Below, in pieces: positions 22,825-45,345 of a stretch of 64,000 nucleotides of DNA (positions are counted from its first letter, which is position 1; each line of letters begins with the position of its first letter). This DNA comes from Aliiglaciecola sp. LCG003. GTDB lineage: Bacteria; Pseudomonadota; Gammaproteobacteria; Enterobacterales; Alteromonadaceae. Made by a program: the position numbers and the translations under genes. The notes below the pieces were generated by a model. That model was not told the origin of the DNA and did not search any database. It was given only the letters and a program-made list of their open reading frames with translations. The stretch is taken from assembly GCF_030316135.1 (NCBI RefSeq), contig NZ_CP128185.1, forward strand, positions 2,418,001 to 2,482,000, read 5' to 3'.

Positions 22825-24420
22825 TTATCTAGCAATGTTCGGAACGTACAGTGTAATTTTTGTGCCCATATTGATATTGGATTCAGCAGTGATTTTTCCT
22901 TCCATATTTTGTGTCACGAGATTATAGACAATATTCATCCCTAAGCCGGTTCCACCATTATTTCGCTTAGTCGTGAAAAACGGATCGAATAAATGCTTCA
23001 AAGTATCTACCGTCATACCTACGCCGTTATCGACAATTTCTATGATCGTCCACATCTCATTTTGTGTGAGAGATAACAATATATTTTTGTTTTCGATTCC
23101 TTCGAAAGCATGCAAAACCGCATTATTAATAATATTATTAATCACTTGAGCCAGAAATCCCGGGTCAATAAATGTATTAGTTTTTTCCCCCTGAATGCGC
23201 CAGCTAATTTTATTCTTTTTAAGCATTACGGCCATGGTCAGCATAACTTCATTTAGATACTGATGAACATCGACATTACGCCTTTGACTTAAAGTTTGAT
23301 CCGTAGAAACTTGTTTAAAGCTTGCAATTAAATCCACGCAACGTTGCAGATTTCTTGTCGCCAATTCTTGCGCTTGATCCAGTTCTTTTAAAAAACTGAC
23401 CAGTTCACTCTTTTTAATGCTATCGCGAAGGATATTCTCTGACAATTCTTTGGATTTAGACTGAATAAAGGATGCGCTGGTGATTGCGATACCCAATGGC
23501 GTATTTAATTCATGTGCCACGCCAGCAATGAGCTGACCTAATGCTGCAAACTTCTCTTGTTCAACTAACTGAGTTTGCAATTGTTGGAGTTGTTGATAAG
23601 AATTTTCCAGTTCACTTTTATCCTTTTGAATTTTAATGCTATTACTGATTATTTCTTGGTTAGCTTCCTCTAGCTCCTTAGTTCTTTCTTTAACTGAAAT
23701 TTCGAGATGCTGCTGATGATTTTTGATCGCAATTTCATTCTTTGTCAAAATACTGAGTGTCGAATCCAGATCTCTACTGAGGCTTCCCAGTTCGTCATTT
23801 CGTGTTATGCGAAAAGAAACATCCCTTTTACCCTGACCGACTTTATGTGCTACATGGGCTAAAAAACGAATGGATGATGTTAGCCTTCGGGCCGTAAAGA
23901 TCGCAAAGATGATACCTATAAAAATGGCAATAAGGGTATAACCAAGTCCATGCCAAGTAGCAACTTCTAAATTATCAACAATCTCTTTGCGACCAATCCC
24001 CACTCTGGCCCAACCAATTTGAGAATCATTTACAAAGACGGGGGCCGCAACATCTATAAGTATTGGATTCTCAGCTAATATTTGAATACCTGATTGCGCA
24101 TTAAGCAATGTCAGACTGACGTCATCGGTTAAATATTTTCCGACTTTGTCTCGCTGAGTATAGCCTAGTACCTTATTATTCATATCGAGGAAAAGAGCAT
24201 ATTTCAATTTTGGAAAATCACTTTGAGAGGTGATGAGTTCTTCCATCCCCATATAATCATTGGAGAGTATCCAGTAGCTGCCATTGGCAGCGAACACTTT
24301 TGCTAATGCTATCGCTTCTTGTTTATTTTGCTCGGTTAAAAACAGTTTTTGCCGATTGACCAGATCAAAAATAAAGATAGTCATTAAAATGGCATGCACA
24401 AGAGTGATTCCCAGGATCAA
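22825..24420 (-). CDS. Membrane sensor histidine kinase
   Basis: Histidine kinase with an N-terminal TM helix, a periplasmic sensor of about 130 residues (Cache-like, with YALFLDMNNKVLGYT), a second TM near 157-177, HAMP, a long coiled coil (about 225-290), HisKA with His303 in GVAHELNTPLG, and an ATPase domain (NNIINNAVLHAF, DNGVGM, GGTGLGM). No receiver domain and no response regulator are adjacent. It follows the binding-protein gene by 50 bases on the same strand, suggesting that protein presents a ligand to this sensor. The start is uncertain: the TTG at 24418-24420 falls inside the first TM helix, while the open frame extends up to 24468 without ATG, GTG or TTG, so an unusual start (ATT at 24466-24468) is possible. 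Confidence 0.88.
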   Translation of the reverse strand: MILGITLVHAILMTIFIFDLVNRQKLFLTEQNKQEAIALAKVFAANGSYWILSNDYMGMEELITSQSDFPKLKYALFLDMNNKVLGYTQRDKVGKYLTDDVSLTLLNAQSGIQILAENPILIDVAAPVFVNDSQIGWARVGIGRKEIVDNLEVATWHGLGYTLIAIFIGIIFAIFTARRLTSSIRFLAHVAHKVGQGKRDVSFRITRNDELGSLSRDLDSTLSILTKNEIAIKNHQQHLEISVKERTKELEEANQEIISNSIKIQKDKSELENSYQQLQQLQTQLVEQEKFAALGQLIAGVAHELNTPLGIAITSASFIQSKSKELSENILRDSIKKSELVSFLKELDQAQELATRNLQRCVDLIASFKQVSTDQTLSQRRNVDVHQYLNEVMLTMAVMLKKNKISWRIQGEKTNTFIDPGFLAQVINNIINNAVLHAFEGIENKNILLSLTQNEMWTIIEIVDNGVGMTVDTLKHLFDPFFTTKRNNGGTGLGMNIVYNLVTQNMEGKITAESNINMGTKITLYVPNIAR

Positions 24421-24470
24421 TTGTCTAGTTATTGATTTGCTAAAAAACTGATTTATCCAAGATAAAATTT

Positions 24471-25409
24471 TTATTGGGTTCTCACTTCTTTATTAAATAT
24501 TTTAATAAAGTCACGAATTGACTGATAAGTATCATTATCCGCGCCCTCGAACCTAGACAATTCCATTCGCGCTAAAACATTTTTTCCTTCTTCAGTTTTG
24601 TGCAAGTTTATTAATAAGAACCTAACTTTTTGTACTAATTCTTCCGGTACACTAGGCAATACTACCAGAGCATTATTTAGCAATGGCTCTGTTTGCCATT
24701 TAATGAATAATTGGTCTGCGAGTTCCGGACGTTCTTTGATTAGCGCTTTCCAGGGAGGAGGCCAGGTTGCCGCGGCACTAGTTTGTCCTAAAAAAACACT
24801 CATTATTGATGATTCCTGTGAACCAACGTAACGGTTGTCCAATTCAGTCAAAACATTAACACCATTTTTTTGCAAGAAATATTGTGGCAACATAGTGGCC
24901 GCCAAGGCACTAGGGGCAGGATAACTAATCGACTTTCCTTTAAGATCAGTAATATTTTTAATATCACTGTCTCGTCTAACTAAAATAATACCTTTAAAGT
25001 TTTCATCATCACCCATTTTGGCAAAAACATTATATCCCCGGTCAATTGCATTGATAGTTTGGTAAGGATTTGGCAATGAGAAATCGAATTTATGCGTATA
25101 TAATTTTTCGTTGTAAGATTCATAATTGCGCGAAGCCTCAAGCTTAAAATTGACTCCGTCGATATTTTTTGACAAATATTCCATTAAAGGTGAAAACACT
25201 TCAAACAGCAGTTGTGGATTGTGTAATGGATGTACTCCGAATACATATTGTGTATCTGCACTGACTGAGATATCCGAAAAGGTTGGCTTATAGATGGGTG
25301 TTGATTCAGGTTCACACCCTAGCAAAAGACTTGCTATTAGCAATAGCCCAGTATTTAGCAAGCATTTTTGAAAGTTCTTTAATGGTTGATTTAAAAAAAT
25401 AAAAATCAA
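24471..25409 (-). CDS. Phosphonate-type periplasmic binding lipoprotein (PhnD-like)
   Basis: Substrate-binding lipoprotein of 312 residues in the PhnD/SsuA/transferrin-like superfamily. A basic n-region and hydrophobic core end in the lipobox LLGC (Cys32). FGVHPLHNPQ, FSLPNPYQTINAI, DLKGKSISYPAPSALAATML and a C-terminal helical lobe are typical of phosphate/phosphonate-type binding proteins. No ABC permease or ATPase is nearby; the next gene downstream is a histidine kinase. The likely role is therefore ligand sensing rather than import, as in other PhnD-kinase pairs. The start codon is TTG with a weak ribosome site. The ligand cannot be assigned. Confidence 0.85.
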   Translation of the reverse strand: MIFIFLNQPLKNFQKCLLNTGLLLIASLLLGCEPESTPIYKPTFSDISVSADTQYVFGVHPLHNPQLLFEVFSPLMEYLSKNIDGVNFKLEASRNYESYNEKLYTHKFDFSLPNPYQTINAIDRGYNVFAKMGDDENFKGIILVRRDSDIKNITDLKGKSISYPAPSALAATMLPQYFLQKNGVNVLTELDNRYVGSQESSIMSVFLGQTSAAATWPPPWKALIKERPELADQLFIKWQTEPLLNNALVVLPSVPEELVQKVRFLLINLHKTEEGKNVLARMELSRFEGADNDTYQSIRDFIKIFNKEVRTQ

Positions 25410-25840: not shown

Positions 25841-26245
25841 ATGTTGAAGTTTATTCCTATTAAAGCCCATGCGGGCATCATCGGTTTTGAGTCTCCTGCA
25901 GCTGAATATACCCAGCTTGGACTTGATTTAGACCAACTCCTTATTGATCATCCATCCGCAACCTACATTGGTATTGCTGATGGTGAATCAATGAAAGGTG
26001 ATGGTATTTTTTCAGGTGACTTACTGATCGTCGATCGTGCTCAGTCTATAAAAGATCAAGATGTAGTGGTCGCTAATCTCAATGGTGTGTTTGTCTGCAA
26101 AAAAATAGATAAGATACAAAGGTGTTTAGTGTCATCTAGTATTGGCTTCGCACCGTATTTTTTACGTGAAGGTGATGAGTTTCAAATCGAAGGCGTCGTT
26201 ACACGCTCTGTAAGATTGCACCGTCCGTTTAAAAAGAGACTTTGA
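25841..26245 (+). CDS. umuD: SOS mutagenesis protein UmuD
   Basis: S24-family self-cleaving protein; after RecA-stimulated cleavage UmuD' joins UmuC to form DNA polymerase V. Of 134 residues, the catalytic dyad is Ser50 (GESM) and Lys87 (FVCKKI). The cleavage site is probably Ala11-Gly12 (AHAGI), a LexA-type Ala-Gly bond instead of the Cys-Gly of E. coli UmuD, leaving a short leader. SPAAEY and LLIDHPSATY match the family. The ATG lies 3 bases after a LexA box with no Shine-Dalgarno sequence, so the mRNA is probably leaderless. The stop overlaps the umuC start (TGATG). Confidence 0.95.
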   Translation: MLKFIPIKAHAGIIGFESPAAEYTQLGLDLDQLLIDHPSATYIGIADGESMKGDGIFSGDLLIVDRAQSIKDQDVVVANLNGVFVCKKIDKIQRCLVSSSIGFAPYFLREGDEFQIEGVVTRSVRLHRPFKKRL

Positions 26246-27510
26246 TGTACGCGTTATGTGACGTGAACAGCATGTATGCCAGCTGTGAAAAAGTGTTTGA
26301 CCCATCTATACGGAAAAAGCCTGTAGTTGTATTAACCAATAACGATGGTTGTATATGTGCTGCATGCGGTATTGCAAAAAGTCTGGGAATTGGCAAAAAG
26401 TTTGTGCCCTATTTTCAAATGAAAAAAGAGCTTAAAGCGGCTGGGGCGATAGTACGCTCTAGCAATTACGAGCTTTATGCCGATTTAAGTAAGCGACTCA
26501 TGGACACCTGCGCTCGCTTTGCTCCTGAAATTAATGTTTATTCAATTGATGAGTGTTTTCTGTATTACGGCAAAAACAAATCTGCCCCACCCCAAGGATG
26601 GCAGGAACTTGCATCAAGTATAAGAAAAACGGTGTGGCGTGAGGTCAGATTACCCATAGGTATTGGCATGGGAGAAACCCCCACGCTGGCCAAGGCAGCA
26701 AATCATGCTTCAAAAAGAATCGATGGTTTTAGCGGTATAGCGGTTATTGATGATGATGCTAAGCGAAAGCTGATCCTTTCCCAAATGGCGGTAACTGATA
26801 TTTGGGGAATTGGCCAGAGACTGGGCAGACGACTCAAGGTAATGGGAATCGATACTGCGCTGGATCTAGCCAATCAGGATCCAACAAAGATCAGAAAAGA
26901 CTTTTCTATTTTAGTGGAAAGTACAGTTCGGGAGCTAAACGGCGAAGTTCGTCATAGCTGGGATGATGCCAGAGCTGCAAAAAAGGAAATATATAGCACC
27001 CGAAGCTTCGGGCAGCGTATTACAGAGCTTGAGCAACTGAAATTTGCCATCGCATCACACGCTGAAGTCGTAGCCGCAAAACTAAGAAAACAAAAAAGCT
27101 TAGCCAGTGCAATGACTATCTTTGCATCTAGCTCGCCCCATGATAATGACGGTTATTTTAGCGAGTCGTTTTTTCATCGATTCATGGTACCAACCAATGA
27201 CACGTGCAATATCATCAGTGCAGCGCAAGCCGCAATTCCAAAACTTTTTCAACAGGGTGTACGCTATTATCGCTGTGGAGTGGGATTACTAGATTTGCAT
27301 CGAGAACAACTTTTCCAGTACGACTTATTCAACCCATCGAAGGATAACCCCAAATTGATGACATGCATGGATAGTATCAACGCCAGATTCGGTCGATCAA
27401 CAGTCCATGTTGCGGCAAAAGGGATTGAGCAAAAGTTTGCTATGCGCCGTGCATTCTTGTCACCCCAATACACCACAAAATGGGCAGATATTCCTAAAAT
27501 CATTTGTTGA
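26245..27510 (+). CDS. umuC: DNA polymerase V catalytic subunit UmuC
   Basis: Y-family translesion polymerase acting in SOS mutagenesis. I start at the ATG at 26245, which overlaps the umuD stop, giving 421 residues, the normal length. Catalytic carboxylates are Asp6 (ALCDVNSMYASCE) and Asp-Glu near 101-102 (YSIDECF). VVVLTNNDGC, SSNYELYADLS and GIGMGETPTLAKAANH are the expected palm and fingers motifs, followed by helix-hairpin-helix (IWGIGQRLGRRL) and the little-finger domain. It is translationally coupled to umuD under one LexA box. A plasmid- or phage-borne origin is possible for such operons, but nothing in the sequence proves it here. Confidence 0.95.
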   Translation: MYALCDVNSMYASCEKVFDPSIRKKPVVVLTNNDGCICAACGIAKSLGIGKKFVPYFQMKKELKAAGAIVRSSNYELYADLSKRLMDTCARFAPEINVYSIDECFLYYGKNKSAPPQGWQELASSIRKTVWREVRLPIGIGMGETPTLAKAANHASKRIDGFSGIAVIDDDAKRKLILSQMAVTDIWGIGQRLGRRLKVMGIDTALDLANQDPTKIRKDFSILVESTVRELNGEVRHSWDDARAAKKEIYSTRSFGQRITELEQLKFAIASHAEVVAAKLRKQKSLASAMTIFASSSPHDNDGYFSESFFHRFMVPTNDTCNIISAAQAAIPKLFQQGVRYYRCGVGLLDLHREQLFQYDLFNPSKDNPKLMTCMDSINARFGRSTVHVAAKGIEQKFAMRRAFLSPQYTTKWADIPKIIC

Positions 27511-31183: not shown

Positions 31184-32701
31184 GTGATAGATGTGTCATT
31201 ATTAAGTGTTATGCGTCGATGGTATTTTCGTGACGGTTTGTCCCAACGAGAAATTACTAAACGCACTGGATTGTCTCGCAATACAGTACGTCGTTATCTC
31301 AAAAAGGACATTGCTGAGCCTGTTTACACTAAGCGGCAGACCTTGGGCAAAGTCGACGAGTTCGAAGAACTGCTTATTAGCTGGCTTAAACGTGAAGCCA
31401 GGCGGCGCAGGAAAGAGCGCAAAACCGTTAAAAACCTTTATGAGGACTTATTGCCGCTTGGCTATTCAGGCTCATATGACAGGGTTGCTGCGTTTGCACG
31501 CAAGTGGCGTGAAGAGCAGCGACTAGCTGCATCTAATCAGGTTTACGTGCCATTAGAGTTTGCCGCAGGTGAAGCCTTTCAATTCGATTGGGGTGAAAAC
31601 TATGCCTTCATCGATGGCCGTAAAACCAAGCTGCAAGTCGCTCATTTCAAACTCAGTCACAGCCGAGCCTTTATCCTGCGAGCCTATCTTACCCAAAGCC
31701 ATGAAATGCTGTTTGATGCCCATAATCATGCGTTTAGGGTGTTCAATGGCGTGCCCGAGCGTGGTATTTACGACAACATGAAAACAGCGGTTGATAAGGT
31801 GCAAAAGGGGAAAGAGCGCATTGTTAATCGCCGCTTCCTGACCATGGTTAGTCATTATCTGTTTGAAGCTGACTTCTGCAATCCGGCTGCGGGGTGGGAA
31901 AAAGGCCAAGTAGAAAAGAATGTACGTGATGCTCGCTCGGTTATCTGGCAACGCCTGCCTCGTGTTAGTTCACTCACTGAGCTTAATGATTGGCTGGAGA
32001 ATGCGTGTATAAAAGACTGGCAAACACGTAAGCACCCGCAGTTTAGAGATAGCACCATTGAGGATGTGTGGTATCAGGAGTAGCGGCAGCTGATGAAGGT
32101 GAATGCTCCATTTGATGGCTTCATTGAGCACACGAAAAAGGTATCTTCCACCTGCCTAGTCAACTTCGACCGCAATAAATACTCTGTGCCCGCTAGCTTC
32201 GCTAACCGGCGTATCAGCCTGCAAGTTTATCCAGGCCGACTTGCCTTCATTGCACAGGGCCAGAAAATAGCGGAGCACAACCGCGTGTTCATGAGCAGTC
32301 ATGATATACCGGGTAAAGTCGTGTATGACTGGCAGCACTACTTGCTCGTCGCGCAGCGTAAACCGGGCGCACTTCGCAATGGCGCACCGTTCAACACCAT
32401 GCCCGATAGCTTTAAACACCTGCAATCCATTCTATTGCAACGTGAGCGTGGAGATAAGGAGATGGTTGAGGTGTTATCGCTGATATTACATCACGATGAA
32501 GCCGATGTCGTGAAGGCGGTTGAAATGGCCTTAGATGTGGGATGTCCTTCCAAACAACATGTTATGAATTGCCTGAGTCGGCTACTTGCCCCTTCAGCCC
32601 CTGCGCCAGTCCCCATTATTAACGGCCTGCAATTAGTCACCGAGCCGACCAGCGACACATCACGCTACGACACATTAAGAGGAAAACGTCATGCACACTG
32701 A
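31184..32701 (+). pseudogene. istA: IS21 transposase IstA, interrupted by in-frame amber codon
   Basis: DDE transposase of about 504 codons split by a single TAG at 32081-32083; both halves are in the same frame. The N-terminal half starts at a GTG with AGGAGA upstream and carries a helix-turn-helix (GLSQREITKRTGLSRNTVRR) and the DDE residues in FDWGE, YDNMKT and WEKGQVEKN. After the stop, translation resumes as RQLMKVNAPFDGF, the usual start of the C-terminal beta domain. Only one substitution (for example CAG or GAG to TAG) is needed to explain it. Unless the codon is suppressed, this copy cannot transpose by itself. Confidence 0.88.
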
Positions 32702-33446
32702 AGCCTTATTACACACCCTTAAGATACTTAAACTACACGGCATGGCAAGCAGTGTTGCAGAGTTAACCTCGCAAGATTCACCCGCCTATAAACAAGCCTT
32801 ACCGATACTCGACACCCTCGTAAAAGCAGAGGTGGCCGATAGAGAAGTGCGCAGCATCGCCTATCAAATGAAGACGGCCAGATTCCCTGTTTACCGAATA
32901 ATTTATGGCTTCGACTTCAGCGAAAGTGAAGTCGATGAATACCTCATCAGAGGTTTACATCGTTGCGAGTTCATTGAAGATTGTCAAAATGCGGTGTTCG
33001 TTGGTGGCCCTGGCACAGGAAAAACCCATTTGGCGACAGCACTTGGTGTGCAAGCCATTCAACACCATCAATACCGCGTACGCTTCTTATCCACCATTGA
33101 ACTGGTCAATACGCTTGAGCTAGAGAAACAAGCGGGCCACGTTGGCCGCATGGCAAATCTTTTAGCTAATTGTGATCTAGTCGTGTTGGATGAATTAGGC
33201 TACGTGCCCTTTAGTCAGGCAGGCGGCACCTTACTGTTTCACTTATTAAGTAAACTCTACGAAACAACCAGCGTACTTATCACCACCAATCTGAACTTCA
33301 CTGAATGGTCAAACGTGTTTGGTGATGCAAAACTGACAACGGCCTTGCTAGACAGATTAACCCATCATTGCCACATCATCGAAACGGGTAATGACAGCTA
33401 CAGATTTAAAGAATCTACGAAAAAATCAAAGGATAAAAAGCGCTAG
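32691..33446 (+). CDS. istB: IS21 helper ATPase IstB
   Basis: DnaC-like AAA+ ATPase that assembles with IstA and selects the target DNA. Its 251 residues are intact: Walker A GGPGTGKT at about 104-111, Walker [14 protein letters not shown] near 163, sensor region [12 protein letters not shown] and the arginine-finger region [13 protein letters not shown]. The ATG overlaps the istA end by 11 bases, the usual coupling in IS21. Without functional IstA it would be idle unless it helps a related copy elsewhere. Confidence 0.95.
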
Positions 33447-41874: not shown

Positions 41875-42414
41875 ATGTCTAGTGTGCAACAAGATTATCA
41901 ATCACGGCGATTAAAGTTTATCGCCCTCAATCCAACTATGCAGCAGCATTTTACCGCACTATATCGAAACGAGATTGTGATGAGTAAAATCATGCCCTGC
42001 TTATCAACTGATCAAGCAGCCAAGCTATTTGAGCGTTTATATCGTCATAAGCCAATTACGTTTTGGGGAATATATCTCCAGTCGGACCTCTCATTCTTAG
42101 GGGTGCAGGGGTTTCTTCCCGAAACTAAAGGGCTACCTGAGTCAAACAGAGAGTTTGGAATTCTGCTTGACCCTGCTGCTTTTGGTAAAGGAATTGCATT
42201 TGAATCTGTTAGCCGTATGCTGGCATTTGGTTTCCAACGAATGAGCTTGACTAAGGCGTATGCGTATTTTGATAGGCACAATATCGCTATTGAGAAAATT
42301 GCTAAGCGGCTAAACTTCAAGGTTAACACTTCCCCTCGCAGTCCAATAGAATGCTATTGCAGCATATCATCTGCAGATTTTTTGGCATATAACCCTGAGG
42401 TTTACCTTGACTGA
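41875..42414 (+). CDS. GNAT family acetyltransferase
   Basis: Predicted acetyl-CoA-dependent N-acetyltransferase of the RimJ/RimL-like GNAT group, 179 residues. The acetyl-CoA loop and helix are FGKGIAFESVSRMLAFGF near 102-119, and the last core strand region has KAYAYFDRHNIAIEKIAKRL with the Asn that usually marks this group. It is the first gene of the putative borosin operon: its last eight bases overlap the TTG start of the N-methyltransferase. It could acetylate the precursor, a product or a ribosomal protein; which one is unknown. A ribosome site (AAGGA) lies rather far upstream. Confidence 0.82.
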   Translation: MSSVQQDYQSRRLKFIALNPTMQQHFTALYRNEIVMSKIMPCLSTDQAAKLFERLYRHKPITFWGIYLQSDLSFLGVQGFLPETKGLPESNREFGILLDPAAFGKGIAFESVSRMLAFGFQRMSLTKAYAYFDRHNIAIEKIAKRLNFKVNTSPRSPIECYCSISSADFLAYNPEVYLD

Positions 42415-43213
42415 ATTACATGACAAAGCCCTCGCAGGTAGCATAGTTTGTGTTGGATTAGGGATGACCTTAGGCGCGCATATCAGCCAACTTACCCGAA
42501 ATTTCATTGAACAAGCCGATGTGGTATTCGTTGGGGCATCTGATGCTTTGGTGGAAAATTGGGTCATGCAAATGAACGGGAATACCATCAGCCTACAGTC
42601 TTTTTATGCCGAAAACAAAGACCGCAAAGTGAGTTATCAACAAATGGTCGATGCGATGATGAATGAGATCCGCAAAGGGCATAAGGTTGTTGGTGCTTTC
42701 TATGGTCACCCAGGTGTGTTTGCATGGGCACCCCACCAAGTCATTGCCACTGCTAAACAACAAGGATTTCATGCCCATATGGAACCAGGTATTTCGGCAG
42801 AAGATTGCATGTATGCTGATATGTCTATCGATCCCGGTACCTTTGGAATACAACATTATGAAGCCAGTCAATTCATGATGTATCAACGACACCTCGACCC
42901 AACAGCATATTTGATATTGTGGCAGTTGGGATTCGTGGGGGACCTAAGCCGCTCTCAATATAAAACCGGTCACCATCATCGCCAGTTGCTAATCGATGTT
43001 TTAGCAGAATCTATTCCGCTGCAGCATCAAGTTGCCATTTACGAATGCCCCACTCTACCCACCCAAAAATGCAGAATTGAGTGGGTGAATTTAGCTGATT
43101 TGAATCACGCCACTGTCTATCACCACTCCACCTTGGTGATACCGCCGATAGTTAAGAAAAAGTATGATTTAGCGACTTTAGCCAAATTAAATGACCTAAA
43201 TTCACCAAACTAG
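42407..43213 (+). CDS. Borosin-type peptide backbone N-methyltransferase
   Basis: SAM-dependent methylase of the tetrapyrrole-methylase fold, 268 residues. Beyond the fold motif VGLGMTLGAH (16-25), it has signatures of the borosin alpha-N-methyltransferases (OphMA in fungi, SonM in Shewanella): FYGHPGVF (98-105), PGISAEDCMYAD (127-138), IDPGTFGIQHYEAS (141-154). From remembered OphMA sequence, catalytic Tyr66, Arg72, Tyr76 and Tyr98 align with Tyr67, Arg73, Tyr77 and Tyr99 here; OphMA Tyr63 is Gln. Unlike OphMA it has no fused substrate tail, so it would act on a separate peptide. The start is TTG with GAGG upstream, overlapping the GNAT stop. A generic SAM methylase is the alternative, but similarity is too broad for that. 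Confidence 0.88.
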   Translation: MTELHDKALAGSIVCVGLGMTLGAHISQLTRNFIEQADVVFVGASDALVENWVMQMNGNTISLQSFYAENKDRKVSYQQMVDAMMNEIRKGHKVVGAFYGHPGVFAWAPHQVIATAKQQGFHAHMEPGISAEDCMYADMSIDPGTFGIQHYEASQFMMYQRHLDPTAYLILWQLGFVGDLSRSQYKTGHHHRQLLIDVLAESIPLQHQVAIYECPTLPTQKCRIEWVNLADLNHATVYHHSTLVIPPIVKKKYDLATLAKLNDLNSPN

Positions 43214-43297
43214 CGATAAATTAATCGATATCGCTTTTCACCAAGCTCATAAGTGGTTAATAATGTTCAGGTACTTTTATTAAAAATGGAATTCACT

Positions 43298-43576
43298 ATG
43301 TCGACAACTCAGTTACTGGAAGAAATCGCTATCAATCCTTCATTTAAGCTTGATCTTTTATCTGAAAACGAAAACGCTCAACAGCTAGCAACGAGAGCGG
43401 AATCGGAGATTGAAAATCGTATAGCGGAACAAGGTAAGATTTGGTGCGCTCTATTTCCAAATGAGGAAGAAGAGAAAGATCCAGATGGTGGCCAAAATGA
43501 AGACGACGCACCAGAAGAGGATGACAAGGAAAATAAACCTACTGAAGTCAATCCGACAAAGACTACAGATAGCTAA
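43298..43576 (+). CDS. Putative split-borosin precursor peptide
   Basis: Small protein of 92 residues, 84 bases after the methyltransferase gene and overlapping the next gene by one base (TAATG). Residues 1-54 are helical and resemble the borosin-binding domain of OphMA: TQLLEEIAINPSFKLDLL aligns with MTKLALDPKALADY, and EIENRIAEQGKIWCALF with the segment ending in GDSWAIRCAM. Residues 55-92 are a low-complexity tail with 16 Asp/Glu among 38 residues, several Pro and Gly, and a TKTTDS end; this would be the core. An ATG at 43298 with GGA upstream is the likely start; 43286 and a GTG at 43253 are alternatives. No RiPP with such an acidic core is known to me, so the role is inferred from position and domain likeness. 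Confidence 0.62.
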   Translation: MSTTQLLEEIAINPSFKLDLLSENENAQQLATRAESEIENRIAEQGKIWCALFPNEEEEKDPDGGQNEDDAPEEDDKENKPTEVNPTKTTDS

Positions 43577-45345
43577 TGATGCGATTCACCCTTGTATTGT
43601 GCTTAATCATTGCTTTTAATATTAATGCACAAAGCAGCAAAGTAGACGTTCAATTACTAATTGAAGAAGCCGAGCAAGTCAGAAGTTCTGACTTCGCTCA
43701 CTTCGAAGTTATTATGGCGGAGATCCAACAAAATAGCAGCGCGTTAACTCCCCAACAGAAGCATTTTTATCAGTATTTAACGGGTTACCAAAATACCTTT
43801 AAAGGCAAATTAGAAGAAGCCAATGCTATTTACAACGCTTTGCAAGAAAGTGATGCATCTGAAGATTTAAAACTAAGAGCGCTAGGCTCATTAGTAAATA
43901 ACTATGCCGTCAAACGAGATTTTTACCTCGGTGCTAAAGCCGTCAATCGCTTATTCGAACAACGTGAAAAAGTCACTGACAAAGACATCATCGATAGTAG
44001 CTTCTTGGTGGTTAGTATTTTTTATAACCAAGCCCGCCAATTTGAGCTTGGACTTAATATTGCCAATCGCCTTTTAGCGCGAGATATTTCGCCTCGAATT
44101 GAGTGTTTTGCCCGACAAATTAAAATAGAATCCGAGTTTGAATTGTCGGTGATTTTGTCCAGTTATGATTATGCTAATCAAAGTGCTGAGTTTTGCATGG
44201 ACAACAATGAATTACTGGTTGCCAATATCATCAAGACCCACATTGCCGAATCTCTCACAAACGAAAATAGAGTAATCGAATCACAGAAGCTATTATCTGA
44301 TAATCTGCAGAAAACCTTAGATTCAAAGTATCCTCCCCTGATTGGCATGCATTACGCTTTAATGGCCAACAACTATTTATTACTTGAGCAACCAGCCAAA
44401 GCCACTGAATATGCTCTAGAAGCTAAAAGCCATATCGAGAATTTTGGGTTAACAAAAGCATTAGTTAAAGCATTGGATGTACTTTACCGAGCAGCTGAAG
44501 AACAAGACAATTACATACAAACAATTGCTTATTTGAAAGAGTTTAATGAATCAGATAAAGCCTATTTGGACGAAACTAAAGCTAGGAATTTAGCGATACA
44601 GCAAGCAAAATATGAGTACAGTGAACAGCTCAATAAAATATTCTTGCTGGATAAACAAAACGCCCTACTAGTAGCCAAAGCGGAACTTGCACAACAGCAT
44701 TCACAAAATAACCGCATGGCATTGGCGCTGTCTTCAGCATTACTGATTTTACTATTTGCCTGGTTATATCGTAGTCGCAAAATTCAAGTGAAATTACGCT
44801 ATTTAGCCGAAACCGACGATTTAACCGGTATTAGTAACCGGCATAATTTCAATGACAAAGCTATCCAACAAATTCATCACGCAGAGCGACATTATCAGCC
44901 CGTCAGTTTCATATTGTTTGACCTCGACCACTTTAAAAGAGTTAACGATAATTATGGTCATCAAATTGGTGATTGGGCGCTATGCAAGGCTGTCTCTGTA
45001 GCCAAGAACATTTGTCGCAATAACGATTTGATTGGCCGTATGGGGGGCGAAGAATTTGCCATATTGCTGCCATCCTGTGACATTGACGAGGCATTGAAAA
45101 TCGCTGATATCTGCCGACAAGCGATTGAACATATTGATTCATCAGAAACAAATTTTGAGTTCAAAATTACTGCAAGCTTTGGTGTGTCTGATTCACAGAC
45201 CTGTGGCTATTCGTTGGAAAAACTGTTTGGCGGGGCTGACGCGGCTCTGTATCATTCGAAAGATTGTGGACGGAATAAAGTGTTTCAGTTCTTCGGCAAA
45301 AAAATGGCGTTAAAACCAACTAGTGGTTTAACGCCCTTTGGATAA
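43576..45345 (+). CDS. Membrane TPR-GGDEF diguanylate cyclase
   Basis: Predicted inner-membrane diguanylate cyclase of 589 residues. A signal peptide (1-18) leads into a periplasmic helical-repeat (TPR-like) domain of about 330 residues, then a coiled coil, a TM helix at about 382-398 and a cytoplasmic GGDEF domain (about 412-580). The active site is GGEEF at 490-494, with the inhibitory I-site RxxD at 481-484 (RNND), so it should make c-di-GMP with product feedback. Its ATG overlaps the stop of the putative borosin precursor, so the two are translated together, and the periplasmic domain may sense the peptide or its target. The slyD terminator lies inside its 3' end. Confidence 0.93.
   Translation: MMRFTLVLCLIIAFNINAQSSKVDVQLLIEEAEQVRSSDFAHFEVIMAEIQQNSSALTPQQKHFYQYLTGYQNTFKGKLEEANAIYNALQESDASEDLKLRALGSLVNNYAVKRDFYLGAKAVNRLFEQREKVTDKDIIDSSFLVVSIFYNQARQFELGLNIANRLLARDISPRIECFARQIKIESEFELSVILSSYDYANQSAEFCMDNNELLVANIIKTHIAESLTNENRVIESQKLLSDNLQKTLDSKYPPLIGMHYALMANNYLLLEQPAKATEYALEAKSHIENFGLTKALVKALDVLYRAAEEQDNYIQTIAYLKEFNESDKAYLDETKARNLAIQQAKYEYSEQLNKIFLLDKQNALLVAKAELAQQHSQNNRMALALSSALLILLFAWLYRSRKIQVKLRYLAETDDLTGISNRHNFNDKAIQQIHHAERHYQPVSFILFDLDHFKRVNDNYGHQIGDWALCKAVSVAKNICRNNDLIGRMGGEEFAILLPSCDIDEALKIADICRQAIEHIDSSETNFEFKITASFGVSDSQTCGYSLEKLFGGADAALYHSKDCGRNKVFQFFGKKMALKPTSGLTPFG
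45298..45335 (-). terminator. slyD terminator inside the end of the GGDEF gene
   Basis: Stem GGCGTTAAAACCA/TGGTTTAACGCC (one bulged A) at 45306-45335, followed on the minus strand by a run of eight T after one A. It lies within the last codons of the convergent GGDEF gene. Confidence 0.8.

Follow-up and report, generated by a model that had tools for sequence, protein, structure and literature searches.

A sensor diguanylate cyclase gene adjoins a SonM-type split-borosin pair in Aliiglaciecola sp. LCG003 and many of its relatives

A four-gene operon with a SonM-type methyltransferase

The window analyzed here is a stretch of 64,000 nucleotides from the genome of the marine bacterium Aliiglaciecola sp. 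LCG003 (contig NZ_CP128185.1). Reading of its open reading frames (ORFs) revealed a four-gene operon on the + strand, encoding in order a GNAT acetyltransferase, a methyltransferase, a precursor and a sensor diguanylate cyclase. The GNAT gene (41875..42414, + strand; 179 aa; Pfam Acetyltransf_3, E 1.9e-13; nearest solved relative the PA3944 acetyltransferase, E 2.3e-5) overlaps by 8 bases the gene of a SonM-type borosin peptide backbone N-methyltransferase (42407..43213, + strand; 268 aa, TTG start). A gap of 84 bases separates the latter from the precursor gene (43298..43576, + strand; 92 aa), whose stop codon overlaps the start codon of the cyclase gene (43576..45345, + strand; 589 aa; ORF and Pfam) in the sequence TAATG. 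From the start of the methyltransferase gene to the stop of the cyclase gene no terminator-like site was listed on the + strand, and a promoter and terminator scan of the operon region gave the same site counts as shuffled sequences. The original prediction was of a two-gene split-borosin system: both genes stand, and the operon is larger than that, as the upstream GNAT gene and the downstream sensor-GGDEF gene had no place in it.

The methyltransferase, single-copy in this 4.41 Mb one-contig genome, is identified by its ORF (268 codons, 42407-43213), by Pfam (TP_methylase, E 1.8e-15), by phmmer searches of the PDB and by an active-site alignment. Its best PDB match is SonM (7ltc, E 3.1e-73); fungal OphMA-type enzymes rank second at about 1e-42, and cobalt-precorrin-4 methylase trails at E 0.2. 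Residues Y58, R67, Y71 and Y93 of SonM, mutants of which are described as impaired (PMC8429565), align with Y67, R73, Y77 and Y99 in the window, the four residues that had been named as catalytic, rightly by this alignment. NCBIfam models of tetrapyrrole enzymes score far under their cut-offs, the best reaching 48 of 525 required bits. These scores argue strongly against a cobalamin, sirohaem or RsmI methylase, the identity that had been singled out as fatal to the borosin assignment, and the window is confirmed to carry a separate SonM-type borosin methyltransferase, with catalysis predicted. Together with its precursor it is a new member of the known split-borosin family. As had been proposed, the arrangement resembles that of the type IV system SonM/SonA of Shewanella oneidensis (PMC8429565), in which methyltransferase and precursor are likewise separate and the enzyme has the same family and active site; in OphMA-type fused fungal borosins the methyltransferase domain is alike, whereas here enzyme and substrate are encoded by separate genes.

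The precursor and its relatives

The predicted 92-residue gene is present as an ORF running from the ATG at 43298 to 43576; an alternative in-frame GTG at 43253 would give a precursor of 107 aa. Judged by its ORF, its relatives and an AlphaFold2 model, the product is a precursor-like protein with a short helical leader, a hydrophobic segment and an acidic tail. The putative core, KIWCALFP (residues 47-54; 43436..43459, + strand), is defined by an alignment in which the window precursor is joined by eight further short-leader ones, five from its own genus and three from two other genera; M1, E8, K47, C50 and P54 are invariant in all nine. The core would be the methylated segment. The AlphaFold2 model (mean pLDDT 63.5) has helices at residues 3-12 and 14-52, not five helices, and a tail (residues 55-92; 43460..43573, + strand) that is predicted to be disordered.

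The first half of this protein had been likened to a borosin-binding domain. No such likeness could be shown for the window protein itself; indirect support comes from its longer-leader relatives, with which it has gene position and core motif in common. When the PDB was searched with a profile of 24 longer-leader precursors, from which the window's was excluded, the seven top-ranking matches were all SonA chains (E 2.3e-7 to 1.9e-6), and the first non-SonA match followed at E 0.03. The window protein has no phmmer match in the PDB and scores E 0.017 as a whole and 9.8 by its leader alone against the profile of the 24 longer relatives; its leader is too short or too diverged for a borosin-binding domain to be called by profile. 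As a family, the precursors appear on these matches to be related to SonA. Compared with SonA, the window precursor is acidic-tailed and has a KIWCALFP-type core and a short leader.

Relatives were taken from 155 loci, comprising all 92 distinct methyltransferase regions of the window's own family, 60 regions drawn at random from 123 in other families of its order, and 3 from Marinicella. Small genes in the same position encode a common leader, a segment near [IV]xC.[ILV].PAEDDE and an acidic tail; two Marinicella precursors stop just after the core and lack the tail. Precursors were recognised by profile in 82/92 own-family, 56/60 other-family and 3/3 Marinicella loci, and a candidate was found by eye in 12 of the 14 loci that had none recognised in this way. 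The core cysteine was considered as an essential residue and rejected, as some precursors have another residue there.

The sensor diguanylate cyclase

By Pfam and a hydropathy scan, the product of the last gene consists of a sensor region (residues 21-379; 43636..44712, + strand), one predicted membrane segment (residues 380-398; 44713..44769, + strand) and a GGDEF domain (residues 411-568; 44806..45279, + strand; Pfam E 6e-40). With GGEEF at residue 490 and RNND five residues before it, the GGDEF domain is intact and the protein is identified as a diguanylate cyclase, its catalysis being predicted. Membrane sensor diguanylate cyclases likewise combine a sensor region, one membrane segment and GGEEF with an RxxD site; what sets the present protein apart is a nearly invariant pair of cysteines together with genetic linkage to a RiPP pathway. 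Among cyclase-type sensors longer than 500 aa, GG[DE]EF is kept in 139/153 and the RxxD site in 116/153, and 126/153 combine a hydrophobic stretch at the N terminus with a segment ahead of the GGDEF domain.

The cysteine pair lies within the sensor region of the window protein (Cys177, 44104-44106; Cys207, 44194-44196; + strand). Its two positions are kept in 155/155 and 154/155 cyclase-type sensors, and the pair in 17/19 stand-alone sensors and 2/33 kinase-type sensors. A mark of all sensors, as which it was considered, it is therefore not: it marks the cyclase type and most stand-alone ones. The simplest reading of Cys177 and Cys207 would be a disulfide outside the cytosol, and the start of the window sensor resembles a signal sequence by eye, although it falls under the threshold of the hydropathy scan. 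The sensor region is probably periplasmic.

The sensor region is of TPR type by family profile only: a Pfam scan of the window protein showed no TPR, and among its relatives Pfam found TPRs in L197 and L212 and not in L211. A profile built on 32 sensor regions picks up TPR proteins of known structure, including the Rap and AimR peptide receptors (RapJ E 7e-7, RapF 6e-5, AimR 5e-4), with unrelated TPR proteins scoring better than these. Rap and AimR are cytosolic TPR peptide receptors; the window sensor region, in contrast, precedes a membrane segment and a GGDEF domain (a kinase in other loci) and is probably periplasmic. Since the sensor profile started from the window sensor and came from a single search of the fetched ORFs, and the kinases lack the cysteine pair, the match of the kinase type may be mere TPR similarity; with the pair in 2/33, the kinase-type sensors appear to share TPRs rather than the specific domain.

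Linkage of sensor and methyltransferase across genomes

The sensor region and the methyltransferase were searched separately in 196 genomes of the window's own family. The methyltransferase was found at 97 places in 78/196 genomes and the sensor region at 104 places in 68/196, and both were present in 62/196 (Fisher p 1e-28, uncorrected for ancestry). Sensors within 6 kb of a methyltransferase account for 85/104, all except one of them (84/85) on the methyltransferase strand; the other 19/104 are far from any methyltransferase match. At genus level, both genes occur in 21 genera, the methyltransferase without the sensor in 3, the sensor without the methyltransferase in 1 and neither in 27; of the seven loci fetched from the three methyltransferase-only genera, six encode a sensor of the kinase type and the seventh (L050) has none. 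Six genomes have the sensor without the methyltransferase (best trace E 0.03, in one of them); these may be listeners only, or may respond to another ligand. Both these genomes and the 19 remote sensors suggest that the sensor may have other ligands.

Among the 155 loci, 152 encode a protein matching the sensor profile on the methyltransferase strand at a distance of up to 4 kb (90/92 own-family, 59/60 other-family and 3/3 Marinicella), the exceptions being L050, L055 (which has a cyclase on the other strand) and L150. The output domain is GGDEF in 110 loci, a histidine kinase in 31 and neither in 11; own-family sensors comprise 71 GGDEF and 19 kinase proteins, and those of other families 36 GGDEF, 12 kinase and 11 with neither. 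Given 42 GGDEF matches in the 4.41 Mb genome of the window, the adjacency of a cyclase is unlikely to be due to chance. All six kinase-type proteins scanned with Pfam have TPR, HisKA, HATPase and receiver domains, and 4/6 also Hpt; a separate GGDEF gene follows the kinase in 8/31 kinase loci, and is of the REC-GGDEF type in L056, the one scanned. The methyltransferase tree implies 10 or more changes of output class (loci without a sensor counted in), with some sensor nearly always kept.

In a class-wide search, 10/369 genomes carried the methyltransferase, 8 of them outside the order. The two nearest of these eight enzymes (53 and 43% identity) are accompanied by a sensor-GGDEF protein and the other six are not; among these six, the one with 24% identity is possibly no borosin enzyme at all. 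The sensor tie thus belongs to the SonM-like clade.

Two further arrangements were observed. At L215 and L216, distant borosin-like methyltransferases (31 and 33% identity) lack a sensor, and the gene after each encodes an MFS transporter (Pfam E 2e-22 and 6e-43); they may represent a different kind, one that is exported. In eight loci from small genomes (L157, L162, L167, L169, L171, L178, L179 and L186), a stand-alone sensor domain of about 360 aa, with neither GGDEF nor kinase and often in two copies, lies near the methyltransferase; in L167, the one of its group that was scanned, Pfam sees only TPR.

Pairing of precursor and sensor, and the GNAT association

Of 157 profile-recognised precursors, 138 have a sensor as the next marked gene, no more than 600 bases away; for the others it is another precursor (10), the methyltransferase (7) or a GNAT gene (2). 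Seven loci each contain two precursor-sensor pairs, and in Marinicella two pair types keep their partners though L036 has them in another order around the methyltransferase than L034/L035. Comparisons of two-pair loci were concordant in 14/21, the weak ones being at noise level, and in 5/5 where both differences exceeded 0.1, a threshold set after the data had been seen. In the three comparisons within Marinicella, covariation with the precursor is as strong, or almost as strong, for the GGDEF half as for the sensor; the concordance is therefore evidence of joint inheritance and not of binding. In L130, L131 and L133 a GNAT, an acid-type precursor and diguanylate cyclases are encoded with no methyltransferase in the fetched region; the genomes have one elsewhere, which may act in trans.

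A same-strand GNAT gene no more than 1.5 kb away accompanies the methyltransferase in 53/92 own-family and 16/60 other-family loci. It is present in 70/86 loci with an acid-type precursor and in 0/55 SonA-like loci, a further difference between the window operon and SonM/SonA. As a strict partner of the acid-type core, the GNAT was rejected: the methyltransferase tree holds 3 supported independent pairs (5 when all branches are used), with a sign test p of 1, and shared ancestry explains the association equally well.

Relation to published borosin systems

According to PMC11285071, which cites Cho 2022 and Imani 2022, type IV split borosins occur widely among bacteria. As of 2021, no type IV pathway had been tied to a final natural product (PMC8429565). 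The arrangement of the window extends to a close relative of the SonM/SonA system: the L197 locus, whose host we infer to be Shewanella, encodes a methyltransferase, a 71-codon precursor orthologous to SonA (E 2.7e-37 against the SonA chain) and a TPR-GGDEF protein, in that order. In phmmer this SonA orthologue (L197:6217-6429, - strand) additionally matched a large number of TAL-effector repeat chains, at E-values that reach 5e-21 when summed over the repeats and that probably reflect an artefact of helix pattern.

At least in part, the GGDEF neighbour has already been published: the legend of Figure 1 in PMC11395268, on borosin architectures, defines 'GGDEF, GGDEF-sequence-containing domain'. 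Going by the legend alone, one borosin type or more is shown with such a domain, whether fused or neighbouring. Neither that legend nor the Introduction and other passages of the paper give it a function. The main text of PMC8429565 makes no mention of GGDEF, c-di-GMP, diguanylate, TPR, sensor, tetratricopeptide, acetyltransferase or SO1480, nor do parts of PMC11285071 mention GGDEF, c-di-GMP, diguanylate or tetratricopeptide. No literature joining borosin with 'diguanylate cyclase' was found, and no signalling role of borosins was recognised among the matches listed. The constancy of the sensor across output types, its pairing with the precursor and a signalling role were not found stated, and may be so in Imani 2022 or Cho 2022.

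A possible signalling role

Enzyme class, active site, gene order, sensor architecture and the constancy of the neighbour can all be read from the sequences. A sensor as near-constant neighbour, mostly one that is predicted to make c-di-GMP, suggests that borosin peptides of unassigned purpose may be signals. We lean, with some reserve, towards the hypothesis that the methylated peptide is the ligand of the adjoining sensor, such that a split-borosin operon would encode both the maker of a signal (the methyltransferase) and its receptor (the neighbour). The methyltransferase would dock on the helical leader of the precursor and N-methylate backbone amides of KIWCALFP, by homology with the action of SonM on SonA. 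A protease from outside the operon would release the core segment, the GNAT may cap the amine of the released peptide, and the short, methylated, hydrophobic peptide would reach the periplasm by diffusion or through an unlinked exporter. There it would bind the sensor region of the protein encoded by the adjoining gene, and the state of the sensor would pass across the one membrane segment to the GGDEF domain, changing cyclase activity and with it c-di-GMP. In a second clade the receptor would be a TPR hybrid histidine kinase, followed in 8/31 such loci by a separate GGDEF protein. The weakest point of this hypothesis is release and export: the operon was found to encode neither a protease nor an exporter, and no secretion signal was recognised in the precursor. 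PMC8429565 describes backbone methylation as favourable to membrane permeability, and a peptide lacking an exporter could profit from this. Against it also stand the distant borosin-like enzymes (31-35% identity) without a sensor.

Operon linkage alone is no proof of a ligand, as it does not separate one from a co-regulated product, and the peptide could be an ordinary split-borosin secondary metabolite that acts on other cells, metals or enzymes, with the cyclase or kinase as a regulator sensing something else. Borosins of known activity are natural products, among them the nematocidal omphalotin (PMC11285071), and the sensor is kept without the enzyme in six genomes. We nonetheless consider this unlikely in view of the same kind of sensor in 152/155 loci, its position directly after the precursor in 138/157 cases, the three output types with which it occurs and the joint duplication of precursor-sensor pairs. 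A purely intracellular control, in which an uncleaved and unexported precursor, its methylation state set by SAM supply, governs the cyclase or a membrane partner, would fit both an operon that has no protease or exporter and the overlap of the precursor stop with the cyclase start. It is rendered quite improbable by the hydrophobic stretch and pre-GGDEF segment of 126/153 cyclase-type sensors and by their cysteine pair (155/155 and 154/155), which suggest a periplasmic sensor region beyond the reach of a cytosolic protein.

GNATs are known to inactivate peptide antibiotics, and their presence in 70/86 acid-type loci would agree with a toxin-and-guard system in which the peptide is an inhibitor, the GNAT provides self-protection and the sensor detects peptide stress. 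Such a system is very doubtful, as the SonA-like loci have the same sensors and no GNAT (0/55), and the acid-type core motif is conserved, not diversified. That a cobalamin-, sirohaem- or RsmI-type methylase merely lies beside an unrelated small gene is hardly conceivable: such methylases have the TP_methylase superfamily in common with the window enzyme, but the SonM and precorrin methylase scores (E 3e-73 against 0.2), the NCBIfam scores and the conserved borosin active site already speak strongly against it.

Extending the ligand hypothesis, we propose more tentatively that backbone N-methylated ribosomal peptides might form a class of Gram-negative signals. Each precursor of the SonM clade, SonA included, would be the cognate ligand of its neighbouring sensor; methylation, with acetylation in the acid-tailed type, would permit membrane crossing, and the output would be c-di-GMP or a phosphorelay. 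The near-constant tie to a sensor offers a concrete and cheap hypothesis for the function of split borosins, which if true would add a chemically unusual class of ligands to the control of c-di-GMP; should the tie reflect co-regulation only, it still shows where a phenotype should be sought.

Other features of the window

Elsewhere in the window, an IS21-type insertion element occupies 31184-33446 (+ strand), with IstB at 32691-33446 (Pfam E 8e-78). Its transposase appears to be interrupted, as it reads as two ORFs (31184-32083 and 32093-32701), and at the cut-off applied Pfam recognises the second half alone. On the - strand (22825-25409), a gene for a phosphonate-type periplasmic binding protein (24471-25409) is followed by one for an sCache sensor kinase (22825-24420). 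A UmuDC-like pair, formed by the overlapping genes of an S24 peptidase and a Y-family polymerase, lies at 25841-27510 (+ strand).
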